In this document: piece after piece, positions 4,471 through 52,500 of the stretch
Position numbering within the stretch: the first letter of the stretch is position 1
How the letters are laid out: the number at the start of each line of letters is the position of its first letter
Source of the DNA: Bugula neritina
Taxonomy: Eukaryota > Bryozoa > Gymnolaemata > Cheilostomatida > Bugulidae
DNA length: 64,000 nt
NCBI GenBank assembly: GCA_964035545.1
Contig: OZ037765.1
Span: forward strand, 34,609,504-34,673,503
Direction of reading: 5' to 3'
Notes under the pieces: generated by a model
Databases searched by the model: none
The model's input: only the letters and a program-made list of their open reading frames with translations
What the model was told of the DNA's origin: nothing
Made by a program: the position numbers and the translations under genes

Positions 4471-6108
4471 TCACTGTGGGAGTTGTCTGCCATGGAACTT
4501 TGGAAAGAAGAAAAGTTTTCTGAGGTGAGTGAAAGTACATTCCTGACAATTAGGTACATTACCACCAGCTGCTTCATCTCCTGTCTTCTTACAATATGCA
4601 ATACTGACTCTTCTAACTCTGTCTTGTATCTGTAAGTATAAATAGAAGAGAAATATAAAGCTGATGACTCAACACACTACACAGTATCATACAAAGAGTA
4701 ATACTGAAGTACTTACTATCCTAAACAGCTCACTAACATCTCTGTGACAGCTGTGTCTGTAGAATGTAGCCACCAGTATTCTAATAAACCAGGTACCATA
4801 ATTCTCATTCCTACCAGCCTTGTAAGCTGTAACACATGAAAATGAGCAGTTAAATGTGAATGTCAGATTGATATGTGAAATAGTTTTTATTTAAAATTTG
4901 CAACAATTCTATTGACATGCAGCAAATATTTTAATTCGCACAAATAAAAGTTTCAGTCGACTCAAATATAATTTTCTTCCCACTAACTTTCTGTACTTGG
5001 CTTCACAATGTAGAAGTCATCAGCATCTAGGTGAGTGAATCTATCAAAGTGAATATTTGGAGACACATGTTGACCTGCAGAAGACTCACTCCCAGCTGTT
5101 GCAGAAGATGAGGGTAGAGGGGTTGGTGTTGGTGGTGAGATGGTGTCTAGGCTTTGTGACTGTGCAGCATTACCAGAATCAGTTCTGCCTGTATACAAGA
5201 TCATCGATGATGCAGAGTGAGAACAAACCCACCACTTGATTTCCATGTAGTAAAACCAACTCAAAACTAGAAGACGTATATATGTACTTTGGTTCAAAAA
5301 AAAATTATTTGGAACCATTATTAGTTCTAATAATTACTGTAACATGAATTAATGTAATCTAACTGCTAGTTCTAGTAACATGAGGAACAACTCTGCATTA
5401 CTTACTGCCAGAACAGGCATGGAAGATGATGAGTTTGGGTTTTCCTCTCATGGCAGGAAATTTACTAGCTGAGAGTAAATCTTTGACTTCTGACAAGTTG
5501 ACAGGTTTACAGTGTCTGTCATAGAAGATGTTTCCAGAAGTTCCGTGTGACATGATGACTAGAATGAACATGCCAAGATCCTTGTGGTCTCTGTGGGTGG
5601 TCTCCTTTCTCACTTCTGATAATATCTCCTGGTGAGTCATATTTAAATATTAAAATAAAGAGAGCTTTTGGTAAATTTTTGTTATCATGGTATAGAAAGA
5701 CATTTTTAGAGCTGATAGAAACTAACATCTGGTGAACATAAAATATTATATATTTGTTTAGATGTATGCTAGGAATGTTGCTTTCAATGGTGAACTTGAC
5801 AGCTAGTGTTGCATTTAGAATACAATGAATAACATATTATTAATTAACAGTCTATGTCAATAGTACAGAGCTTTATTACACAACGGATAAGAGATTGATA
5901 TAGTAACCTGTTTACTCAGGTCAAACAGAGGATCATCTTCATTGGCTACAACAAATCCCATGTCTTTCAACAGAGTTTTGATGTTAACATAGTCGATGTA
6001 TGAACCATCTCGGGTTGCCTTAGTCAATTCACTGCCATCATCTCTAAAGAATCTCTCATTGTTTATGATCATGACACGACCTCTAACAGGGTCACTCATC
6101 GCATAAAC
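4471..6108 (-). CDS. Caspase domain exons of the fusion (p20 and p10)
   Basis: Five exons. 5908-6108 gives the p20 start: RGRVMIINNERFF, then a TRDGSYIDYVNI loop and LLKDMGF. 5406-5628 gives the catalytic His in IMSHGTSGNIF (His codon 5545-5547) and the catalytic Cys in IIFHACSGS (codon 5413-5415). 4988-5188 gives a Ser/Pro/Thr-rich inter-subunit linker, then HLDADDFYIVKP, equivalent to the p10 start. 4717-4826 gives YKAGRNENYGTWFIRIL, the substrate-pocket strand and helix. 4471-4629 gives the C-terminal strands around LRKLFFFPKF and the stop. All core elements are present, so activity is plausible. The pentapeptide is HACSG rather than the usual QACxG. No CARD or death-effector prodomain is seen; the N-terminal partner is Roc-COR. 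Confidence 0.9.
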
Positions 6109-9100
6109 CTGCAAACCAATGCATTTTATCTTACTAAGGGTAGAAACTGAAAACGGATTAATCAAATCAAATATGAGATTCAATAGAAAATAAATGAAGA
6201 GCCATAATATCAAAAAATATTTTTCAATGATCTAAAAACTTGCGTTACCTGCTGGTGGTTGTCAAACTTCTGTCTAACTCGTTCATTGATGGTAGGTTTC
6301 AGCTGCATGCCATCAACCATAAATATAAAAGGTTCAAGGTCATCTTTAGTAAAATCAGCATATCCTTCCTCTTCTACATCAGAGCATTCACTGAGGTTAT
6401 CATCTTCACCCAGTACTAAAATAAACAAAAAGGAGATATGTTCAGTGCTAAGTATCAGATCTACTAAGATATACTAAGTATCAGAATGACTGTTAACAAT
6501 GAACAGAATTATACTTTCCCGTTTTAATCAGTAATTATATAAATAATATAATAATTATATAAATCAATTAAAGCTAAGTGATTTTGTTCTATCTGAGTGT
6601 CATGAGTTCTTGTCTATTGCTGTTTACATATGACTGAGCTCAGGCAGAGGATGTTACTTCTAACAGTAACAGTTTATGATAGAAAACTGATCATACCAGG
6701 GACAATTGAAGTAGTCTCTTCTCTTGCAGATCTCAGTTTGTTGACATATTCTTTTATGTTATCAGCTTCTTCTGGAGAGAGAGAACTGCCTGGATAATGA
6801 AAAACTGTCAGTTACCACATGAAAGTTCTATGCTTCTTAATATCAGAACATAAATAGTAGAAAGACTGATGAAAGTGAGCAAAACTAAATATTCACTTCA
6901 AACTGAATGTAAACATACATGGATAGAGTAGAGCACTTGGTATCTCCTCGTCACCACACAGAGTTGTTGAAGATCCACTACACAGTCTGGGACTTGGTCT
7001 GAGATGTTTCAAGGAACGAAGACACCATGGAGGATTCAGCACTTTCTTAGGACAAGGAAGTCCTAGCAGAAGACAGTGAGCACAGCAGCATGTAGTGACT
7101 GGTCTACTTGCTGTCCAAGTTTCTAGGACATGTCTAAGGATGTTGTTGTTGGTGGTGATGAGTCTCTCCCACATTCTGCTGATGTTGGCAGCATTAGATG
7201 ACACGTAGAGTAACACCTTTCTAGATGTATAGTCATGTACCAGCTGTGTGTAGATTCCATCTTGATAGACATTGGCGCCATTTTTCTTCACTTTAATCAC
7301 AGCAAACTCATCAGAAAACAACTTTAACAAGCAAACTATCATCTGCTGGTAGACATAGTGTGGTAGCGCTAGACCATTGAATGTGGTTTCAACTTGAAGG
7401 AGCATGTTTTTTGGCGAGGAGTGAAAGGCATCAAAGAAGTCGCTAGCAAACTGGGGAACAATAAAGCAGGGCTCCTTGGAATCAGCAGGTAAAGGACCAT
7501 ATAACAAACGGAAGGTTTGAAGCAAACACACAGCAACTTCTATATCTTCCAGACCAGTAAATGGTGTTTCTTGTTTAACCAGATGAGTGAGAAGACATTG
7601 CATCATCAAACCAGTCTCAGTGAAATGATTAACAAATCTCTCAAAGTCTTCTTTTTCAACAGGCATCCCATCCTCTGAAAAATATGGCTGGAACTTGTCA
7701 ACTCTACTCTGCCATATGCTAGGATCATGATGATACAAGACACAGAGAAGTTTGGTAACTTCTGAAATTTTGTGGAATATGTATGGGCGGAGAGAGCTGA
7801 TATCTTTATACCACAAGACTTTGCCGCAGTCATGCATGTATGTGAGGATTATATCCAGCTGACTTGACTCCATGTGTTGATGTTCTGTTTGTACGTATTT
7901 CAGTATCTCATCAAAGGTACTGTACACAAAGGGAATAGACAGCACTTTTTTATTGACCTCCTCCCAGACCAGAGGTAAAGGTTTCACAAAATGTTGACTG
8001 CTTTGAAGAAGAGACTCTTTGATCTGGTCAAACACTTCATACTTATCATCTTTCCCCACCTCATAAATTTCCTCACCAAGAAAGACTCCTTCAGTTGATT
8101 CACTAAAATGTTTGATTTGAGCAAATTCTCCACCCAATGCTTTCTCTTCTCTTATCATCTCCTCACACAGCTGATTGGAAGTTTCTATAAAGTTCTTTCG
8201 AAGCTTTTGAAATTCTGTACTTTGAAACTTATCTTTATGTGTGAAGATAAGTTTTGGAGCACCCAGAGTTGGGTTAGCCAGATAAAGGTGAGACATGTAA
8301 TCAAAGGCTAATCTTCTAACAGCTTCTCTGTTTGTTGATTCATTTAAAATCTCATCATACTGTTCCATGTTGACTACTATGACTGGAATGCAATTCTGTC
8401 TCAGTGTCAGTTGATAGGTGATATGGTAGACCTCCTGGCCTCCCATATCTATGACACGGAGTACTGTACCATCCACCTCCACTTCTTCAACATTAAACAC
8501 CTTTGTTGTCTCATCTCTCACAGCACCTGGCCCTCTGTTAGTCAAAACTCTCTTTCTGTCAGCATTCTGTAATGTTCTGATTAGACTGGTTTTTCCAGCC
8601 ATCGTATTACCCAGCACAGCTATAGTAGCGAATGGTAGACTTCTACCAGCATCTTTAGCCAAATCTGTGTAGTATTGTCTCACAGCATCTACTCCTCTCT
8701 TACATATTTCTAGTGGAGGAGAGGTGAGAGCATCACAATAACCAACATCCAGCTTACAAAGTTGAGTTAGTTGTAATATCTCAGGATCTAAGGATGTCAG
8801 GGAGTAGTTGGAGGATATATCCAGTTCTTGCAGACTACTCAGTGTGTACACAGGAGACGGTAAACTGGTGAACTTATTCCAAGATACTACCAGTATAGAT
8901 AGCTTCTGTAAACTCCGCATGCTATATTAGAGAGCATATTAAAAATATTACTTTTTTGTTGAAATTTAAAATCTTCAAGCCAAAGAATCCGTTACAATTG
9001 TATATAATTAAAATCTTCTGATACATATGAAACTTAGAAACTATTTCAAAAAAGCAAAGTCAAAAAGTTTCAGGATTTGAACACATAAAAAGTAATTCAA

Positions 9101-12100
9101 GAAGCTAAAGCTTCAAGCAATATTGTGTACATCTATTCAAGTTAAGAGTTGCGGTCCGGATAGACACTAGACCCTAGAGTATTTACATTAGTATGTTGCA
9201 CCAACTACCTGCGCACATTGAAACTTGGTATTTACAAATATTCTAGCTTTGTGGAAATAGATGTATGCATGTATACTATGTATGCAGACAGTTGCTGAGT
9301 TACTGATGAGATATTATATATATTACAGTATCATTCTACGCTATAAAATTATTCACACCTGTTTGGTAGAGTTGACAGTTCAGAGCTAATTATGTGCAAC
9401 TCTCTCAATGATAGTAAGGATGTGAATATATTGTCAGGTAGACCTTCAGATAGCTTATTATATGATATATTCAATACCTCAAGATTCTTCAGTGAAGATA
9501 TGCTGTAACAAAATATACAGGTATGAAATATTTACATCATGAAGTTAAAATCCTTTAGAACTTGAAAAAGCCATCCAGTTGTATCAACAAAGAAGTTTCA
9601 AAAGAGATGAACCAACGTTCCTGTTTGGTAGAGTTGACAGTTTACAGTTGCTGAGTTACTGATGAGATATTATATATATATTACAGTATTATTCTACACT
9701 ACAATAAAATACACACCTGTTTGGTAGAGTTGGCAGTTTACATTGATTCATGTCCAACTCTCTCAATGATAGTAAGGATGTGAATATATTGTCAGGTAGA
9801 CCTTCAGGTAGCTTATTATCTGATATATTCAATACCTCAAGATTCTTCAGTGAAGATATGCTGTAACAAAATATAAGTGTATTAACTTATGCATAATATA
9901 ATATCATATCAATGCAGTGGTGAAACAATTTCAATAAACTAACTTCTTCTACTATCGATGGGAATCTTTATTGAAATCAGACCATAGCTTTTCTCATTTT
10001 CCAATCTCAAACCTCTTTTAAAAAATACCTTGAATTACTTTCAGCAGTCTAGTATTATATTCCTTTCAGCCCTCAACAGATGGATAAGGCAATGGATTAG
10101 AAAGGTGATGAAGATGTAAAGATTTCAACCCTCAACACGGCTGCTAAAGTCCAGAGCAGAAAAAAAGCATCAAGATTGTCTAATAGAGACCATGTGAAGC
10201 TGAATGCATCACCTGATGAATGAAATAAGGCTACATCAAGAGGAGGAGAAGCCTTAGAGCGGCGGAGGAGAAGAAGTAACATTGATAGACTAGCAAAAGC
10301 TTGAAACAATTATACAAGCTTGAGAGAAAAAGTCTCAATGTTGAGAGGAAAAGCAGAATCACTCCAACAGACGACTNNNNNNNNNNNNNNNNNNNNNNNN
10401 NNNNNNNNNNNNNNNNNNNNNNNNNNNNNNNNNNNNNNNNNNNNNNNNNNNNNNNNNNNNNNNNNNNNNNNNNNNNNNNNNNNNNNNNNNNNNNNNNNNN
10501 NNNNNNNNNNNNNNNNNNNNNNNNNNNNNNNNNNNNNNNNNNNNNNNNNNNNNNNNNNNNNNNNNNNNNNNNNNNNTGTCAACTCTACTCAATAATAGTA
10601 GTGTATTATATTGTCAGGTAGACCTTCAGATAAGTTATTCATTGATATATTCAATACCTCAAGATTCTTCAGTGAAGATATGCTGTAACATAGCGTACAG
10701 ATATGAAATAATGTATAATATAACAGTTTATGACTATAATTGTATAATTAATGATGGATTCATAGCCTTATGACAGTAACAGGAAATGGAAGGTGGCAAG
10801 TACAAGGAGTGTGAACCAGCTCGTCTATATATCATAGCCTCACATCTTGTAAATAATAGACCAAGAACTGACTTGACTAAATGGCTAAATGGCTAGCAGC
10901 AGTGTTAGTGTAGGGCCACACGACTCGTTTTGCTCGAGAAATTGGACATCATGAGCGGGATTTTCATGCGTCTAGCATGCTGAGAAAGCGCAGCGGCACG
11001 CTCGTGCGTGTTTGATCTAATTGGCTTATTACCATGTAATAATTAGCGAGCGCACTTTTTTATTTTAATTTATGATTTAACTTCTAGCGAGCTGAATTAA
11101 AACAATTTTATATAGTTTGCCTTTCCACTTTTATAATATCCAAATCACTTTGCCGATGACTTATGGGGCTGCCACACTACAGTCAAAACGGCCATCTTGA
11201 ACGCGTTTTCGAGGCTAAGCGTTGACCTCTGTGACGTCACAACTGAACGCAACTGTCAGTTTTTAGCGATGCGATGAAAGTTCAACATGTTCAACTGTCA
11301 TCGCTGAAGTTGAGCGATCAGCCAATCACTGACTGGCCAGGTAAACCCTGATTGGTTAAGTGCTTTTACTTTTTCCACGTGCTACTAGCGAGCATTATTA
11401 TTTGATTTGGTTCTTCGAAAATTATATTAATTTACTTTTAAAATAATTATGATGAAGTTATGTATGAAAATTTCAATAAATCATGAAAATAAGTATTCAT
11501 TAGATAGATTTTGTTAAATTTTATCTGCATATTTAGTTTTTCTAATTTGGTTGAATTTTATTAGCGTACTATAACTATTTAGTTCTTTAGGCTAGTGAAT
11601 GAGCTTGAATAAAGCTAAGTAAATATATCATTAAATGAAGCTAGTAATTTTGAATAATTGAAGCTAGTAAATTAGAATAAAAATAACTAGAAAATCTTAT
11701 TAAATTATGCTAGTAAATCTTAAAAAATTGCGCTAAGATTAATTGTTGGTTACTGTGGATACTGCAGAAACTGGTCTATGGCATTCCTATTGGTTTAAAA
11801 GTTTACTGCGAGACTAGAGACAGTTAGCTTTCATCGTTCGTAGTGAACTGTAGTGTGACCAGCAAAAAGTAGGACGTGACGTTGAAGGCATGCGCAAGCA
11901 GCTTCAAAATGGCCGCCACAGTCGCGTTTCGACTGTAGTGTGTTATGGGCAATAATTTAAAAAAGCAAACGCCTATAGGCAAGCAGTAAAGTTTAACGCT
12001 AACATCATTGGCTAATAAATTTTTGCACTCGCAACATACGCACTGTGTGTGGCAGGTCACTAGCGTGTATTCTCGAACGTCACAAACGTGTAAAAACGCG

Positions 12101-13994
12101 TCGTGTGGCCCTACATTTAGTGCTATTACAGCATAATTCTAAACTGTAATACAATACAATACACACCTGTTTGGTAGAGTTGGCAGTTGACTTTGACAGA
12201 TATCTAACTCTCTCAATGATGTTAGTGTAGATGTGAATATATTGTCAGGTAGACCTTTAATGAAGTTACCATTTGATATATTCAATACCTCAAGATTCTT
12301 CAGTGAAGATATGCTGTAACATAGCGTACAGGTATGGAATGTTGTATAATACTATATATAACTAAAACTCTACAAATCATTTACATCTAATAGTAGCTAA
12401 ACTACAATAGCTCAAGTTCTTTAATTAGTTCTATGAACTTTATGTGGAATGAAGAGTTGACCCTCCGCACCAACATTCTTATGTTACTGCATCTAAGGGT
12501 GCGCCTCTGAGACAAGAGATAAGTATTAGGCCGTGAATAATAAGGAGACAGTTGCTGAGTTACTGATGAGATATTATATATACTACAGTATCATTCTACA
12601 CTATAATATAATACACACCTGTTTGGTAGAGTTGACAGAGAACAGTACCACATGTTCAACTCTCTCAATGATAGTAAGGATGTGAATATATTGTCAGGTA
12701 GACCTTCAGATAAGTTATTCGCTGATATATCCAATACCTCAAGATTCTTCAGTGGAGATATGCTGTAACATAACATATAGATGTGAAATTATTTATGATC
12801 TCTCAATAGTAGTTATAACTGGACACCTGGGTGGTCATAGTGATAGCAGGTTTGGGGTCAATTACATGTAAGTGTAATTGTTAATGTAAGTTAAAAATTA
12901 GTGTAATTAATTACAATTACAATTACTTTTGTTCTCTTAAGAGATAAATAGAAGTTATACAATGTCACTTCTAGGGTCCAAATACCAGGGGCAATGTTGA
13001 CAGTGGTGAACCTCCTTTGTTCTCAACAGTGATACTATAGGGTCATTCCATGCCAAGTCAGCCAAATTTTAAGTGGTCTCACGCCTTTGCGGCACAGATT
13101 TTGCTCATATTTACACCAAATGGACTTACAGATATCAGGAGTATTATTCGTGAATATTTCTGGCCTGACACAAAAATTGAAGTTCTCAAAGTACGCTATT
13201 GGGTACGATCTATTGCATCTCATTGGACATTTATATCCAATGAATTTCTGTCCAATAGGATCCCACCGCAATATTTTCGAATTAAATAGAGCTTGATCCT
13301 TGAACATCTTTAGAACAGTTGACATTGGCTATTGCAGCGTATAGTGCGGCAAAGTGTGTCTCGGGGAAACTTCTACACAGCAGTAATTATAGCTAGCTAT
13401 ACTAGCTAACTCTAGTAACATTCTATTCTAGCTGCGGCAGCACCCAGCCTCATCACTCAGCTGGCTTGAAAGTTCAAAGTCGGAAATTCCAAGCCACTAA
13501 GGCTTGTCAAATTAACTAGCTCAATTCAGTGAAATTTACTAACATTAAACCAAATCACAACCTAGTAATATTTACTAAAATACTAATGTAACATTACATA
13601 AAAATATTAACGCATTATTACATATTAAAATTAATATAACATTAACATCATAGCATACCTGGTCCAGTCAGGGTCTCGGTCTACATTAATGAGCCTCAGA
13701 TGTGTGAGATGAGGAAACAGTGTGTTGATATTTGGAAGAATGTCATCCTCCAGTACAACATGAGTAACTGTATGATGTCTACTTATTTCATTGATCTCTT
13801 CTATAGTGTAGGGTCTAGTTCTATTCTTCATCCACTTATCATCAGCTCCATCTATACTGGATGTGTTGAACCACACCCTGTACTTCTCTATAAAATATTC
13901 ACCAGTTTATAAATACTTACAAGACTTGGCATAATCCTAGACTCAGCTCCTCTATCTCTCTGAGAACCTGACTAGTTGAATGGAAGAAGGACAT
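4471..13994 (-). CDS. LRR-Roc-COR-caspase fusion protein (Roco family)
   Basis: Proposed exons, 5' to 3' on the minus strand: 13921-13994, 13659-13877, 12619-12762, 12167-12313, one partly in the N gap ending 10682, 9717-9860, 9359-9502, 6919-8921, 6697-6789, 6249-6415, 5908-6108, 5406-5628, 4988-5188, 4717-4826 and 4471-4629 (TGA). Junction phases agree throughout, giving roughly 1,350 residues. Order: N-terminal region, about ten or more leucine-rich repeats, Roc GTPase, COR region, acidic linker, caspase with large and small subunits. Roco proteins are GTPase scaffolds (LRRK, MFHAS1, DAPK1 types); caspases are aspartate-directed cysteine proteases of cell death and immunity. I infer a receptor and protease in one chain, with LRRs sensing, GTP state switching and caspase executing. 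The start at 13994 is a guess; an upstream exon may exist. A merge of two adjacent genes is possible, but no stop, ATG-rich start or promoter-sized gap separates Roc-COR from caspase. Confidence 0.82.
6919..8921 (-). CDS. Large exon: last LRRs, Roc GTPase and COR region
   Basis: One 2,003-base exon. It begins with about three LRRs (LQELDISSN, LCKLDVGYC). At about residues 98-250 there is a Roc (Ras of complex) GTPase with P-loop GNTMAGKTSL, switch II DMGGQEVY and the base-specificity motif THKD, all intact. A COR-type dimerisation region of about 330 residues follows, then a Cys-rich stretch (TTCCCAHCLLLGLPC) near the end. The donor after CTCTATCCAT (intron from 6918) gives phase 1 and joins in frame to the exon at 6697-6789. 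The upstream acceptor (intron side ends TCTAATATAG) accepts a phase-2 LRR exon. Confidence 0.9.
9359..12762 (-). CDS. Array of duplicated 144-base LRR cassette exons
   Basis: Near-identical exons at 12619-12762, 12167-12313 (147 bases), ?-10682 (5' part visible, rest in the gap), 9717-9860 and 9359-9502. Each encodes about 48 residues, that is two LRRs: SSLKNLEVLNIS, then LPDNIFTSLLSLREL, ending LPNS. All are phase 2-2, so any number can be added or skipped without frameshift. Intron sequence beside them is duplicated too (GTTGCTGAGTTACTGATGAG near 9290, 9645 and 12550), showing recent exon-plus-intron duplication. Residues vary mainly after LSLREL, where LRR ligand surfaces usually vary. Confidence 0.88.
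10377..10576. other. Assembly gap (200 N)
   Basis: Exactly 200 N. It interrupts an LRR cassette exon and may hide part of one exon or additional cassettes, so the LRR count is a minimum. Confidence 0.99.
10909..12115. mobile_element. Non-autonomous DNA transposon with ~20-bp terminal inverted repeats
   Basis: The left end TGTAGGGCCACACGACTCG is matched in reverse complement at the right end (12095-12115), about 1.2 kb apart, with no transposase ORF. It lies inside the LRR-array intron. A target-site duplication is not convincing, so the superfamily is unassigned. Confidence 0.72.
11173..11942. mobile_element. Nested inverted-repeat element inside the 1.2-kb transposon
   Basis: CACACTACAGTCAAAACG at 11173 reappears inverted as CGTTTCGACTGTAGTGTG ending 11942. 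It could be an independent insertion or an internal subterminal repeat of the host element. No coding capacity is seen. Confidence 0.55.
13150..13275. mobile_element. Relic related to the piggyBac-like MITE at 39827
   Basis: In reverse complement, about 75 bases (TTGGACAGAAA, CATTGGATATAA, ATAGATCGTACC) align closely with 39960-40040 in the TTAA-flanked element. The ends are not recognisable here. Confidence 0.6.
13659..13994 (-). CDS. N-terminal exons of the LRR-Roc-COR-caspase gene
   Basis: Exon 13659-13877 (phase 2-2) encodes a region ending in an LRR-like stretch (HLTHLRLINV), preceded by WFNTSSIDGADDKW. Exon 13921-13994 could begin at ATG (13994) with MSFFHSTSQVLREIEEL. It is open further upstream to an acceptor-like AACAG near 14025, so the true start may be in an earlier exon I cannot identify. 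Confidence 0.55.
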
Positions 13995-16479: not shown

Positions 16480-30254
<13,775 letters not shown>

Positions 30255-43136: not shown

Positions 43137-46100
43137 TCACCAAATAAACAGAGGCATGCCATCATCAGCAGACATCATTGCAAGACACTGAAGTAGTATA
43201 AGAATGTCATTGACCTCTTGCGCGGTCGCGAACCTTCGCACGAGTTCCCTCAGCAAGCCCTCTTCATGAACCGTGACCACAACGTGCTGCACGTCTGATT
43301 TGCTCTGCTTCATAACGCCATATTTGTTGACCAGCGAAGACGCGAAGTTTGCGTGGTACGGGAATACGTAGCCTGCTGAATGTAGAGACCTCATAACAAA
43401 AGCATATCTGTCTATCATCACTTCCTTGATCTCTCCGGTCTCTCTCTCGATAATATTCTGTTGTAGGTTGACTACGTTGTACCCGTAGAAACTCTTGTAC
43501 TTGCACTGCTTGTTGAACTTGCCGTTCAGCACAAAGCTAAGAATGCGTTTGTCAAGCTGGAATGCTATTTCTCCCAACACCCTCTGGTGGTTGGATTCCA
43601 GCAAACTTATTTTGTCCAGATTGTGATGTCCGTTGTCACCAGCACTTCCCTTGGCTTCCACCAACATGGGTGTCTCTGGTAACCCCCTGAAAGACTTTGT
43701 GGGGGAGCATTGCTGCTCCTTCGGCTGTCTGGCTTCACCAAAGTTTATCGGTAGCGCTGCCTCTGATCTTCTGTTGCACTTGAGTGGCGGCTGTTTCTGT
43801 TTATATTTACCTAAAATAAATCATATGCCATATCTATCTTTTGTTTATATTTACCCACAATACATCATAATATAATGATGTTTAAACCCACACCAACCTG
43901 CACACATAACTCTTGGAGGTGCACCTTCTATAGAGCTCACTCCACTCACAGTTTTCCCACTACCTCTCTGCAAAGTGTACGTCTTGTTTAGATCTACTTT
44001 ACCCAACAAATTTCTTCTGTTCTCCTAAAACCGTACCCAGCTGTTCAAACATTTGATGTTATGCATTCATAGACCTGAAGTTATGGGCAATTATTTTACC
44101 ACGTTCTAAAGTATTTTAATAACCTTTGCCACTAGCTTTTTATGTTTAAGTTCTGCCGGGTTTGAGGGGGCGACATGGAGTCCTCTATGTTCGCAATGTT
44201 TCCAATGATGCACTAGATTTCTATGACTCATCTCTTTCGCTTTTCCTCGGTCTGATTTAGCCAAGAATTCCTTGACCTTGGAAGTCGTTCGTGGAAAGTA
44301 ATTGGACTGTGCATTGTCAGTAGAATTCAAATTCAGACCTAAAAATTTAGTTAATAAAACAATAGTCAAGTCAAGGCGTTCACATGAAACATATTCTCTC
44401 AGTACTGTTTGTGGCAAAGTATGTCATCATATTATACTATATAATGTTCTGTAGACATTATCTTATACTGTGTACAACACTGTAATATGTCTGCTGTTCA
44501 CCATTTCCTCCAATAACTCCCTAGTTACTGGGTCATGGGCAATCTCTATTTTGATGCATGAACATACAAGTGCTGGACCATTTACTATTTTGAGTTTTAT
44601 TAGTGATGAACCAGTTGCTACTTTGAATTAAATTATTTTGATTTAGAACTGTGCATGTGAGTTATCAGTCGCTGACTCGTGATAATACTCCTTCAGTTAT
44701 AACTGTCTGGGGAGAAGGTTAGCTTACACATAATATAAACTCAGTGAATCACCAAACTCAGTACGTACTAATTCCTAGAGAATATAAACTCAGTAAGTAC
44801 TGATTTCTAGAAAATATAAACTCTGTACGTACTAATTCCTAGAGAATATAAACTCAGTACGTACTGATTCCTAGAGAATATAAACTCAGTACGTATTAAT
44901 TCCGAGAGAATCTAAACTCAGTACGTACTAATTCCTAGAGAATATTAACTCAGTACGTACTCTCAGCATCTGACTCACTCTCCCAGTCAGTCAGTCCCTG
45001 TTGCTTGTTGTTGACATTGCAGTTTGCTGACTTTGGTTTTCTAGATGCTGACTTTCCCCTCGCACCTGTTAGTAGAGAATATTTATTATAGATTTATTGC
45101 AATATGCACATGAATTTAAACTTCTCATTTGATGGATATGTTCAGTGTTACACCTACAGTAGGGGTAACGGCGGGCCGAGTTTTGCATTTTTCGCTCTCA
45201 TTCGTCTGTTTTTCAAGTTACTAGTTCAATAATCTCTAGTCTTAATGCTGCATCTGTTGTCTATTACAGGTATCAGTTTGTTGTTTCTATCTCTCTCACA
45301 ACTTTCAGAATAATGAAATTTTCATGACGAAAAAATCGGCCCATTGTGCCCCGGTACCGGGGTACAATGGGACACAACAAATATATTGAAACTTTGCAGA
45401 TTTTGTTGCATTTGATCTTTATTTATTTATTATTACAAATAAATAAAAATATTCTTTCAGACCTAAAACAAAATTCATGTTTTAGCTGTATACAGTTTGT
45501 GCCACCACGGATAGCAGAGGAAGGCAAAATCAAACGCACATCACTAGGTTCTACGGTGCCATTATCATTACCGTTCAGAACTAAAAATGTTTTTTATTTT
45601 CACTTCAGAGGAACTTTTATTAGAAAAAAAAACTTTAGTAACATGTGCTACAAAATTTTGAGTGGACTTTTTTCTATAAACTGTAGCTAAGGTGCATGGC
45701 TCCAGTTTGTGGCTGAAGTGCGGAAGGGAGAGGCCGGGGGAGGAAATGAGCAGATCACAATTTATTTTGGTCAAATACATGTATATTCCCTCAATGATAT
45801 AATGTATAATGAATATCATGACTATCTACTAGTAGCAACAGCAGAGTATTTTGTATTATGTATAAAATGGCAAAGCTTTAACCTCACCAGATGTATATAT
45901 TAGGGGAACTTCACTTTGTAGTTTTGTAGTCTTACCATGATGTCTTTGATGATTTACAAAAAGGTCAGAAATGGCTATATCTATAGATTTTAGTAACATT
46001 TCAACCAACTTTTTGGGCAAACAAACTAATAACAGTGATCAGGGTGCAATAATCAGGTGGCCCATTGTACCCCAGTCAGCGTGGCCCATTGTGCCCCTGA

Positions 46101-49515: not shown

Positions 49516-52500
49516 TCAGAGGTGACTAGCTGGTAGGTTGGGCATACTGCTGCTAACATAATTCTCGTCAGCCTGTTCTTCTGTAATATTATTGAATGTG
49601 AAGGAGAATTTAGGGGTGGGCGGGACACTGCTCAACCCTAAGCTACTATTTGACCAGAACGGGGCAACTGGGGCGACCAGGTTGGGGGTTCTGAGAAGAG
49701 GCGAAGTTATATCTGGGTGTTCACTGGGAGCGGCAGGGGTCTGGTAGGGGAAGGAGGAGCAGACGGAGGTTGAAGAGGGTTTCAGGACGCTGGGGGTGAG
49801 CAGAGGCGGCATTTCCTCTGAGGGACTCAGGCTAGACATGAGCATTTGGTTGTTGTCTCCCTCGTCAAATATCTCCGCGACAAAGGCAGGTATCTCTGTC
49901 GGTTTGTCAAGCTTCACAGCCAGAACTCTCTCTGCGTGTCGAGTAGAGATAGTACGCAGATCTGTTACCTGGTAAACACAGCTCTGCACTCATCAGTGTG
50001 AAGATGGAGAGTTTCAAATATTAAATCAGTTTTCTATTTCAGACACCATTGAATAAACTAAACAGCTTTTATCAAATTTTAACCAACTAAAAGTTTTATA
50101 ATTCACTTAATAAACAATTACTTTGGAAGCTAAAAGTAAGAACTGAAGCTATAAATTCCTGCTCCAAACCTTAATCAAGATGGTGCCCCACCGACTCAAA
50201 CTCGGCCCTGGCTGTTCGCAGACGTAGCGACTGAAAGCTCCAATGATTGGATCTTGTAACCTCTCAATAGCATCCGGGTTCTTCAAACCCGTCCTATCTG
50301 ATAAACAACATAACTTTGGAGTTGTCTGTATTTATAGGACAAATTACTATAGAGTTATTTTCCCTGCTCATTTCACAAACTTTGACTAATTACCGTAACG
50401 ATATCTCCCTGTATTTAAAGAAATCAGAAAACATAGAAATAATTGCAGTACTTCGAGTCCAAATTTTTTAAAAATTCAACAAAATACACATAATATTTCA
50501 TTTCCCTACAAACTTGAGACGCTGACCTACAAACTTGAGACGCTGACCTACCGGTCTGCATGAGAAGTAAGGCAGCAAGCAGAGCTACTTCGTTACGATC
50601 CAAATTGAGTTTAGAAATGCTTTTAGCAAACTCGAAGATTGGTGCGAGCAGCAGACTGATGCCGTGGTGGGAGATCTCGTGGAGCTGGTCCTGGTAGAGC
50701 TTGACTCCGTTGGAGAGGGTGAGGGAGCGCTCGGAGTTGTTGTACCTGCACGCAGCTCTGAGGCACATGATCTCCATGCAGCATGACCTCAGCAGCAGCA
50801 CCCGGTCATTAAGGTCAATCTACATTCCAACCAAGACTTAGGAGAGCATAACTCTAAATATCTAGAGTATCTGGGAGAACATAACTCTGAATATCTATAG
50901 TATCTGGGAGAACATAACTCTAAATATTTAGAGAGTATTTGCGAGAATATAACTCCAGAGATTCATAGAATATTTGGCTCATATATAGTATAGTAGTAGA
51001 GACAAGCAAACATGAGAAAGGTATAAAGTTGACTCACTGTTTCAAATCCGGGCACATTTTTAGCAAAATCTACTACTTTGATTATTGAAGGAGTGATGAC
51101 CTCTGCCAGTTGCTGCCACATCCTGCTGCTGTTACCATCTTCAGAGTCAAAGGGTAAGGGTGGCTGCAGAGGAGTAGAGAGTATGTCTATTTACTTTATA
51201 GTCTATTATATTCTATGCACTCTATACACTTTCTATATATACTCTATATACTATACTCTATATTCTATGCAATATATACACTTTCTATTATATACTCTGT
51301 ATACTATACTCTGAATTCTATGCACTCTATACACTTTCTACTATATACTCTATATACTATACTCCGTATACTATACTGTATATAATACACTACACTATAG
51401 ACTATAGACTATAGAGAGCACCTAGCACCTTAACACACATTGAAGTATTATAATAAAACATAATCTTGCTCAGGTTACATAAAACAAATGTGCATAAATT
51501 TCAATTTAAGGAAAATGAATATTTAAAAGAGGAAGTAAATGAGTTCTCTCACGGAAGTGGAGTCTTTGTTTTTGACGGAGCTCTTCTCAAACGCCTGCAC
51601 AATGGCGTTGATGAGGTAATGATCCACTTCTTTGAGGGAGGAGGCGGGAGAGCTGCTGGTAGACTGCATGCTGCAGACACTCTCACTTGGAGACATTGAG
51701 GGACGCTTGAGAACGCCCCTTCCCGATATGCCAATAGCGAGTGGAACTTGTGAGATGTCTGGGTGGCTGTTGTTTACTTTTACTACCTTCACAAGTAGAG
51801 AAACAGGGCTTAGTATATCAGCCCGTGTAATATATATGACATCCTAATGTCTCATATATTATATAATATATGACATCATATTGTGTCATATATTATATAA
51901 TATATATGACATCATATTATCTCATATATAGTGTGTTGCATGTCTTAATGAGCAACCAAAGGATTTACCTCTCTGTCATAAGAAAGGTTTTCAAGCAATG
52001 TTCAAGTGGGCACTCAATACTAAGGAGTTGTCTATACAAAATAAGTGTGGAGAATTTGTAGCGTTACTTCATCATATAAATATCTCTAAAGAATTTAGGC
52101 TATCTCACTGCACCTCAATATCTCTCTTCCGTCTCTCTCTGTTCTCTTCAATCAACTTCCTTTTTGCAATTCTTTGCTTTTCATTTAGTACCACTTCAAA
52201 GAAGAACAATATAATATTAATAACAATGCCATGTAATAATACCGACAATAATATAGCGTCAATAATGTCATAAAATAATATTAGTATATAAAAAACACAG
52301 TTATATAATATTAGAAACCCTGCAGACGTCACACAGCTGCAGACGTCACACAGGTGCAAACATCACACAACTGCAGACGTCACACAGCTGCAGACGTATG
52401 CAGTTGTGTGACAGACAAAGGTAACTATGAGAAAGCATACAGTCGGTTGCCATGCCGACGGAGATGCACTTGTTGAAGCGACACTGCTGACACTGGTTCC

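Follow-up and report, generated by a model that had tools for sequence, protein, structure and literature searches.

Roco proteins have been studied through LRRK2 in Parkinson's disease, and the roles of most members of the family are little understood; one member, DAPK1, is tied to cell death. In NLR receptors and in the Apaf-1 or CED-4 apoptosome, sensor repeats and a nucleotide switch are coupled to a caspase output. There, the switches are NACHT or NB-ARC ATPases, and a separate caspase is recruited via CARD or other death folds. A review of the Roco family sets out three groups, notes that DAPK1, also a Roco protein, carries a death domain, and in its text does not contain the word "caspase" (PMC6337361). 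Brown algae possess LRR-ROCO candidate immune receptors encoded by tens of genes, with LRR exons in phase 2, sites under selection on the concave face, and exon shuffling, to which groups 3 and 4 are exceptions; three group-3 members have a peptidase from a different family (IPR009003) at the C-terminus, and "caspase" does not occur in the text (PMC11378527). In the sponge Dysidea avara, the legend of a figure on NACHT proteins includes both COR and CASc when it lists the domains that make up NLR architectures (PMC12909245).

A gene of the bryozoan Bugula neritina differs from each of these systems. Its predicted product has the same LRR, Roc, COR order as Roco group 1 (CtRoco and MFHAS1/MASL1), including a matching fold, but adds a caspase after COR. 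The LRR-Roc-COR core is also common to LRRK1 and LRRK2, the best structural matches, which run on into a kinase, whereas the bryozoan protein runs on into a protease. DAPK1 starts with a kinase, lacks LRRs and carries a death domain, in contrast to the LRR-first protein with a caspase described here. The brown-algal genes resemble the bryozoan family in gene number, phase-2 LRR exons, concave-face sites and exon shuffling, although their LRR exons measure 72 bp, compared with 144 bp in the bryozoan. Relative to NLRs and the apoptosome, a GTPase and a caspase in one chain take the place of an ATPase and a recruited caspase. Judged by the wording of the legend rather than by exact domain combination, the D. 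avara proteins are NACHT-based, unlike this one. The initial annotation knew of no described animal protein with this domain order; the literature searched, part of it as partial text, likewise yielded no description of an LRR-Roc-COR-caspase fusion, but predicted proteins of this kind are already in public databases under other names.

Architecture of the Bugula neritina gene

The window is the whole stretch of DNA analyzed (64,000 nucleotides), and all positions refer to it. On its minus strand, exons from 13887 to 4471 join by GT-AG introns into a single open frame; every modelled exon has AG/GT borders, and a single frame holds from the cap exon at 13887 as far as the TGA at 4471. The gene consists of an LRR cap, phase-2 LRR exons, a single Roc-COR exon, two linker exons (LK1 and LK2) and a five-exon caspase (C1 to C5), followed by TGA:

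13659..13887, minus strand: LRR N-terminal cap exon, with AG/GT acceptor and donor and an open frame
12619..12762, minus strand: LRR exon a, 48 aa, both borders in phase 2
12167..12313, minus strand: LRR exon b, 49 aa, both borders in phase 2
10580..10682, minus strand: fifth LRR exon copy, frame disturbed, adjoining an assembly gap and excluded from the gene model
9717..9860, minus strand: LRR exon d, 48 aa, both borders in phase 2
9359..9502, minus strand: LRR exon e, 48 aa, both borders in phase 2
6919..8921, minus strand: Roc-COR exon, with the last LRRs, Roc GTPase, COR-A, COR-B and a Cys-rich end (Pfam Roc, AlphaFold, fold matches)
6697..6789, minus strand: linker exon LK1 (relatives in fetched loci)
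6249..6415, minus strand: linker exon LK2, acidic, with an SDVEEEGY motif (relatives in fetched loci, Ka/Ks, alignment A1)
5908..6108, minus strand: caspase exon C1, p20 start, with an S1-pocket Arg in TRDGSYIDY (splicing, caspase-3 alignment, profile)
5406..5628, minus strand: caspase exon C2, with the catalytic His (IMSHG) and Cys (HACSG) (splicing, caspase-3 alignment, profile)
4988..5188, minus strand: caspase exon C3, a Ser/Pro-rich stretch between p20 and p10, then the p10 start (splicing, profile)
4717..4826, minus strand: caspase exon C4, p10, AGRNENYGTWF with the second S1-pocket Arg (splicing, caspase-3 alignment, profile)
4471..4629, minus strand: caspase exon C5, p10 end and TGA stop (splicing, profile)

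This model departs from the initial annotation at several points. Seven introns, not six, separate the Roc-COR exon from the stop. A start at 13994 was rejected: the ATG exon there, with its gtaagt donor, is 74 nt long and leaves two bases of a codon where the next exon requires one, and the upstream exon has no conserved counterpart in either of the two relatives used for comparison. The cap exon itself encodes protein 74% identical to that of locus L031 and 71% identical to that of L012. The duplicated LRR array was recovered as four intact exons of 48 to 49 aa, whereas the fifth copy, beside the gap (N at 10377-10576), is disturbed in frame. Contamination was ruled out by the introns and by the neighbours on chromosome 1, where the gene adjoins a bromodomain and SNF2 gene, with a nuclear-receptor ligand-binding domain further off.

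The Roc motifs annotated originally (GNTMAGKTSL, DMGGQE and THKD) are all present, the P-loop is intact, and Roc passes the Pfam cut-off (PF08477, 29.6 bits versus 27). By sequence, COR-A scores below its own cut-off (17.0 versus 35.3). The AlphaFold model of the Roc-COR exon (pLDDT 85.6) matches the folds of LRRK2, LRRK1 and CtRoco and the structures 6hlu, 3dpu and 4wnr; the sequence match to 4wnr spans both Roc and COR, with a total E of 2e-4 to which each stretch contributes a match that is weak alone. COR directly follows Roc, as in Roco proteins generally, and the whole tandem fits solved Roco structures by fold. By its Roc and following COR, the predicted protein belongs to the Roco family, a group further marked by GTP binding and nucleotide-dependent dimerization; Pfam found neither NACHT nor NB-ARC in the Roc-COR exon, which sets it apart from NLRs.

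The claim of a complete caspase after Roc-COR held up. The spliced exons match PF00656 at E 1.8e-28 (100.2 bits), the match taking in profile positions 1-227 of 233 with both p20 and p10, and SHG and ACSG align to the catalytic His and Cys of caspase-3. The arginines in TRDGSYIDY and AGRNENYGTWF align to caspase-3 arginines that we take to be the S1-pocket residues for P1 Asp, the second within a weak stretch; p10 alone matches caspase-3 with 9.1 bits. Caspases carry the active-site pentapeptide motif QACxG. The window gene instead has HACSG, two positions off QACRG; its profile match and the fold of its residues thus make it a caspase, but one that deviates at this motif; because HACSG replaces QACRG, its protease activity is uncertain.

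The paralog family and the continuity of the chain

The gene family is large and clustered in the B. neritina genome. The Roc-COR exon has 66 genomic matches, counting the window copy, and the Roc, COR and Roc-COR searches combined identify 92 distinct places, of which two, both short matches to COR on C7, are perhaps unrelated. A same-strand caspase match lies within 6 kb downstream of 75 of the 92, and three more have one in fetched loci. These neighbour counts use the 150 listed of 176 caspase matches (295 candidates). Among those listed, at least 51 of the 66 Roc-COR exons are accompanied by a same-strand caspase match no more than 6 kb away, compared with about 0.002 expected per exon by a crude uniform estimate; of the other 15, 3 have caspase exons in fetched loci, and 12 are judged on the listed matches alone.

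Twenty loci (L009 to L028) were fetched, that is, 20 of the 22 plus-strand members among 39 long Roc frames (≥460 aa). G1 and G4 motifs are present in all of them and DxGG in 19. Both the catalytic His and Cys are kept in 18, the His being lost in L014 and the Cys in L027. At least two relatives carry stops, L018 in Roc-COR and L024 in exon C4; the Roc-COR acceptor of L024 is TG in the alignment. A 2,363-aa open frame at C1:33884494, considered as a retrocopy, proved to be an N gap read as open.

The linkers bear on whether the domains form one protein. Relatives of LK1 were found in 15 of the 20 fetched loci and of LK2 in all 20; the queries were window, L019 and L023 sequences, and these last two loci therefore match by construction. 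Compared with L024 to L026, LK1 contains no indels and no stops, and its Ka/Ks of 0.49 to 1.57 over 30 codons gives no clear purifying signal; for LK2, Ka/Ks is 0.25 to 0.40. Furthermore, in the bryozoan Watersipora subatra, two predicted proteins each align as a single chain to Roc-COR, the linkers and the caspase, and SDVEEEGY of LK2 is shared between Watersipora and the window gene (alignment A1). Both proteins have the pentapeptide QACSG, Roc falls below the Pfam cut-off in both, and one is labelled an MFHAS1 homolog by NCBI. Phyla outside Bryozoa are poorly sampled because the protein search of alignment A1 was dominated by LRR proteins. Thus, conserved and frame-preserving linkers, a domain order fixed in tens of paralogs and the single-chain Watersipora predictions strongly support, at the level of sequence, a sensor, a switch and a protease in one polypeptide, as first proposed, whereas activation without an adaptor is something we infer.

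The sensor idea gains from LRR diversification, evidence absent from the initial annotation. At concave-face sites, pN/pS was 2.19, compared with 0.40 elsewhere, in 13 exons (13 of 21 matches; seven without a canonical end and one of 49 aa were omitted). In 20 further exons, hand-picked from 150 listed rows and each 79-85% identical to a window exon (a choice biased, if at all, toward conserved exons), the values were 2.74 (bootstrap 1.67-5.85) and 0.28. These are ratios from related exons with non-independent pairs, as distinct from a codon-model test. The caspase and Roc-COR trees are discordant (AU p 1.8e-4 and 4e-6, for groups defined after inspection of the identity table and first trees, all of which omit L016, which has no C1 match); this conflict indicates that modules have been exchanged or converted.

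Proposed mechanism and alternatives

The window gene probably belongs to a family of bryozoan LRR-Roc-COR-caspase receptors that is large and diversifying, with each member firing its own caspase by induced proximity. By analogy with other Roco proteins, the receptor would reside in the cytosol, where its LRR face would bind a putative ligand, microbial or from other colonies. Binding would change the nucleotide and dimer state of Roc-COR, dimerization again being suggested by other Roco proteins, and two caspase domains brought together would fire. The outcome would be cell death or signal release without a CARD or death-domain adaptor. More tentatively, bryozoans may possess a Roco-based receptor system of about a hundred genes. 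Each would combine an LRR face, hypervariable through and through and shuffled by exon, with a GTPase switch and a caspase of its own, and the caspase modules would have moved from one switch type to another.

Alternatively, a caspase gene and the LRR-Roc-COR gene next to it could have been co-duplicated as a unit, with no fusion protein made. In favour of this, 61 of the 150 listed caspase matches stand more than 6 kb from any Roc, COR or Roc-COR match, by Roc and COR lists that are incomplete, and caspases lacking a Roco neighbour may therefore exist. However, the linker exons preserve a frame that runs stop-free, LK2 is universal among the fetched loci and aligns inside single Watersipora proteins, and, among the matches listed, no opposite-strand or upstream caspase lies within 6 kb of the 128 Roc, COR or Roc-COR rows, all of which makes separate genes very improbable. 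The caspase domain of the window gene might instead serve mainly as a dimerization or scaffold module, a pseudo-protease, as the two differences between HACSG and QACRG and the losses in L014 and L027 would allow. Against this stand the His, the Cys and both S1 arginines of the window gene, the 18 loci that keep both catalytic residues, and exons C4 and C5, which show zero or one amino-acid change relative to L025 and L026; we regard this reading as quite improbable.

A different question is what the receptors recognize. Bryozoans are colonial animals, which lends some appeal to colony allorecognition (fusion or rejection), rather than pathogen sensing, with the caspase executing rejection. 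The large, clustered family with its diversified LRR face is compatible with either role, as are the results as a whole. Inspection by eye revealed no obvious signal peptide at the Watersipora N-termini, one of which may be incomplete; this would suit an intracellular sensor more than a recognition protein at the cell surface. We regard allorecognition as unlikely.

Little is known about either the immune receptors of bryozoans or their allorecognition. Under the favoured reading of a caspase-firing receptor family, a Roco core between a diversifying LRR face and a caspase suggests a receptor-switch role, and protease activity would be a simple readout of how Roc-COR controls output. Such a protein would link recognition to a caspase in these animals by an adaptor-free path and, if true, the family would be an animal counterpart of the plant NLR and brown-algal LRR-ROCO repertoires, leading from recognition to cell death within one molecule.

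Structure of the gene and its surroundings

The window gene is encoded on the minus strand in 13 exons that run from 13887 to 4471, with AG acceptors and GT donors at the exon borders and a TGA at the end of the last exon. The 13 exons join as a single open frame of 1322 codons (partial first codon and stop included) that encodes, from 5' to 3':

LRR cap
Four intact LRR exons
2003-base exon, carrying the last LRRs, Roc and COR
Two linker exons, LK1 and LK2
Five caspase exons, C1 to C5

The initial annotation counted six introns after Roc-COR; there are seven between the Roc-COR exon and the stop. Its start codon at 13994 is rejected too: with the best donor, its frame does not continue into the next exon, and the exon upstream of the LRR cap is not conserved in either relative compared. 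The LRR exons are in phase 2 at both ends, as is the junction into the Roc-COR exon, so that the LRR array can gain or lose exons with the frame intact. A 200-N assembly gap (10377-10576) lies inside the array and adjoins a copy of the LRR exon whose reading frame is disturbed.

Neighboring exons belong to ordinary animal families. On the minus strand, these include Bromodomain (17800-18111) and SNF2 (22433-22789) exons within 16500-25700, probably from one SMARCA2/4-like gene; a Speriolin C terminus (43140-43820); and a nuclear hormone receptor ligand-binding domain (50427-50819). The long open frames at 16.9-17.5 kb and 18.4-19.1 kb consist of tandem repeats.

Continuity of the Roc-COR and caspase parts

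The caspase domain (Pfam E = 1.8e-28) has caspase-3 and CED-3 as its best PDB matches, and its His, Cys and two S1-pocket arginines align with those of caspase-3; the p10 stretch, taken alone, is a weak match. The initial annotation placed this domain and Roc-COR in one polypeptide, and the predicted frame, open across every junction, upholds that view. Five lines of evidence say that the LRR-Roc-COR and caspase parts form one predicted protein rather than two genes: the open frame, linker conservation, the presence of LK1 and LK2 in paralogs, the fixed caspase position, and single chains in the bryozoan Watersipora.

Compared with three close paralogs (L024-L026), the linker exons are free of stops, and LK1 and the caspase exons contain no indels; most introns contain indels, many not multiples of three. 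In L026, the nucleotide alignment has a 42-column gap run in LK2, yet the protein alignment shows LK2 complete at that locus. AG/GT splice borders are found in L025 and L026 and, except for the Roc-COR acceptor, in L024. Ka/Ks is 0.25 to 0.40 for LK2 and 0.49 to 1.57 for LK1, an exon too short to judge.

Among 20 fetched paralog loci, LK2 is present in all and LK1 in 15; downstream of Roc-COR, caspase exon C2 is found on the same strand in all 20, C1 in 19 and C4 in 16. A genome search with the Roc-COR exon yielded 66 scored matches of 163 candidates, the window's own included. By coordinates alone, 51 of the 66 have a downstream match among the caspase matches listed, and the fetched loci add three; the same three add to the 75 of 92 distinct Roc or COR places with a downstream caspase among the matches listed. 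No upstream or opposite-strand caspase within 6 kb of these places was found among the caspase matches listed.

Two predicted Watersipora subatra proteins (1835 and 1419 amino acids) with LRR and Peptidase_C14 domains align with the window gene across the whole Roc-COR, linker and caspase (34 and 33% identity) and share the linker motif S-x-x-SDVExEGYxD. Their Pfam Roc scores fall under the cutoff (20.7 and 18.4 versus 27 bits), and their pentapeptide is QACSG, versus HACSG in the window gene. The initial claim that no animal protein with this order had been described holds for the literature searched, which covered few subscription journals and yielded no description of a Roco-caspase fusion, but the Watersipora predictions were already in databases. 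PF00656 was annotated in none of the 103 proteins listed by a first protein search and in 2 of 10 from a second, both from Watersipora; hits in such searches are limited to relatives within a set length range that have short words in common with the query. A predicted Branchiostoma belcheri MFHAS1 homolog (1690 amino acids) combines LRR, Roc and COR-B with PF00534 and PF13692, both glycosyltransferase families, and is perhaps another animal Roco fusion.

Family size and discordance between modules

Of the 66 Roc-COR matches, 64 are stop-free; chromosomes 6 and 1 carry 31 and 25 of the matches, respectively, and all family counts are lower bounds. With Pfam COR-A, a further, more distantly related set appears on chromosomes 1, 6 and 7; 21 of 23 COR matches have a downstream match among the caspase matches listed. 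Broken-looking members occur. Both His and Cys are kept in 18 of the 20 fetched paralogs; L014 has lost the His and L027 the Cys. L027 (C1:32580843-32590842), with a Roc-COR 82% identical to that of the window and ETYKGG at the lost Cys, is a possible pseudo-protease.

Caspases that lack a Roco neighbor may also exist: for 61 of the 150 matches listed, no Roc, COR or Roc-COR match is known within 6 kb (examples lie at C4:5000994-5001812, C8:4.8-5.0 Mb and C2:30.5 Mb), and one comprises a full-length caspase frame without interruption. Metagenome proteins contain Roc-COR exons as well, at 31 to 87% identity. Strong Roc-model matches on small contigs (C58, C90, C99, C210, C144, C36 and others) contain in-frame TAA and TAG but very rarely TGA, a pattern resembling a ciliate nuclear code; these contigs look like a cobiont in the assembly.

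The window Roc-COR shares 88 to 90% identity with its counterparts in L023-L026 and L028, but the caspase is 94 to 96% identical only to those of L024-L026, with 44% identity to L023 and L028. Conversely, in eleven pairs drawn from L009-L013, L023 and L028, identity is 76 to 82% for the caspases and 61 to 66% for the Roc-COR exons. Faster evolution of one part cannot yield both patterns. In AU tests of groups picked after seeing the data, the caspase data reject a clade of similar Roc-COR rows (P = 1.8e-4) and the Roc-COR data reject a clade of class-B rows (P = 4e-6); the Roc-COR data do not reject a clade of class-A rows (P = 0.28). Hence, either caspase modules were swapped or Roc-COR exons underwent conversion, the border being near the intron following Roc-COR. 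An unrooted caspase tree joins class-A caspases with those of Watersipora against other Bugula caspases (99/97); the same tree has a branch with all Bugula rows on one side (76/46), and therefore the caspase classes are not shown to predate the Bugula/Watersipora split.

Diversification of the LRR face and a proposed mechanism

The LRR exons are near-invariant save at exposed positions of the LxxLxLxxN strands, which are given by the general LRR pattern. Eight such positions, set from that pattern after the exons had been viewed, have a pN/pS of 2.19 versus 0.40 elsewhere in 13 exons, and their mean column entropy exceeds that of all 20000 random eight-column draws. In 20 further exons, pN/pS is 2.74 (bootstrap, 1.67 to 5.85) at exposed positions versus 0.28 elsewhere. 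The genome holds at least 150 such LRR exons, a number that comes from scoring part of 643 candidates. Brown-algal LRR-ROCO genes likewise combine LRR exons in phase 2 with concave-face sites under selection, resembling the window gene in both exon phase and LRR-face pattern (PMC11378527).

In other Roco proteins, COR dimerizes and the nucleotide state alters the dimer; initiator caspases fire once two are brought together. In the predicted fusion, a ligand would be bound at the LRR face and the signal passed via Roc-COR to the caspase, which, lying behind COR, may fire directly upon ligand binding.
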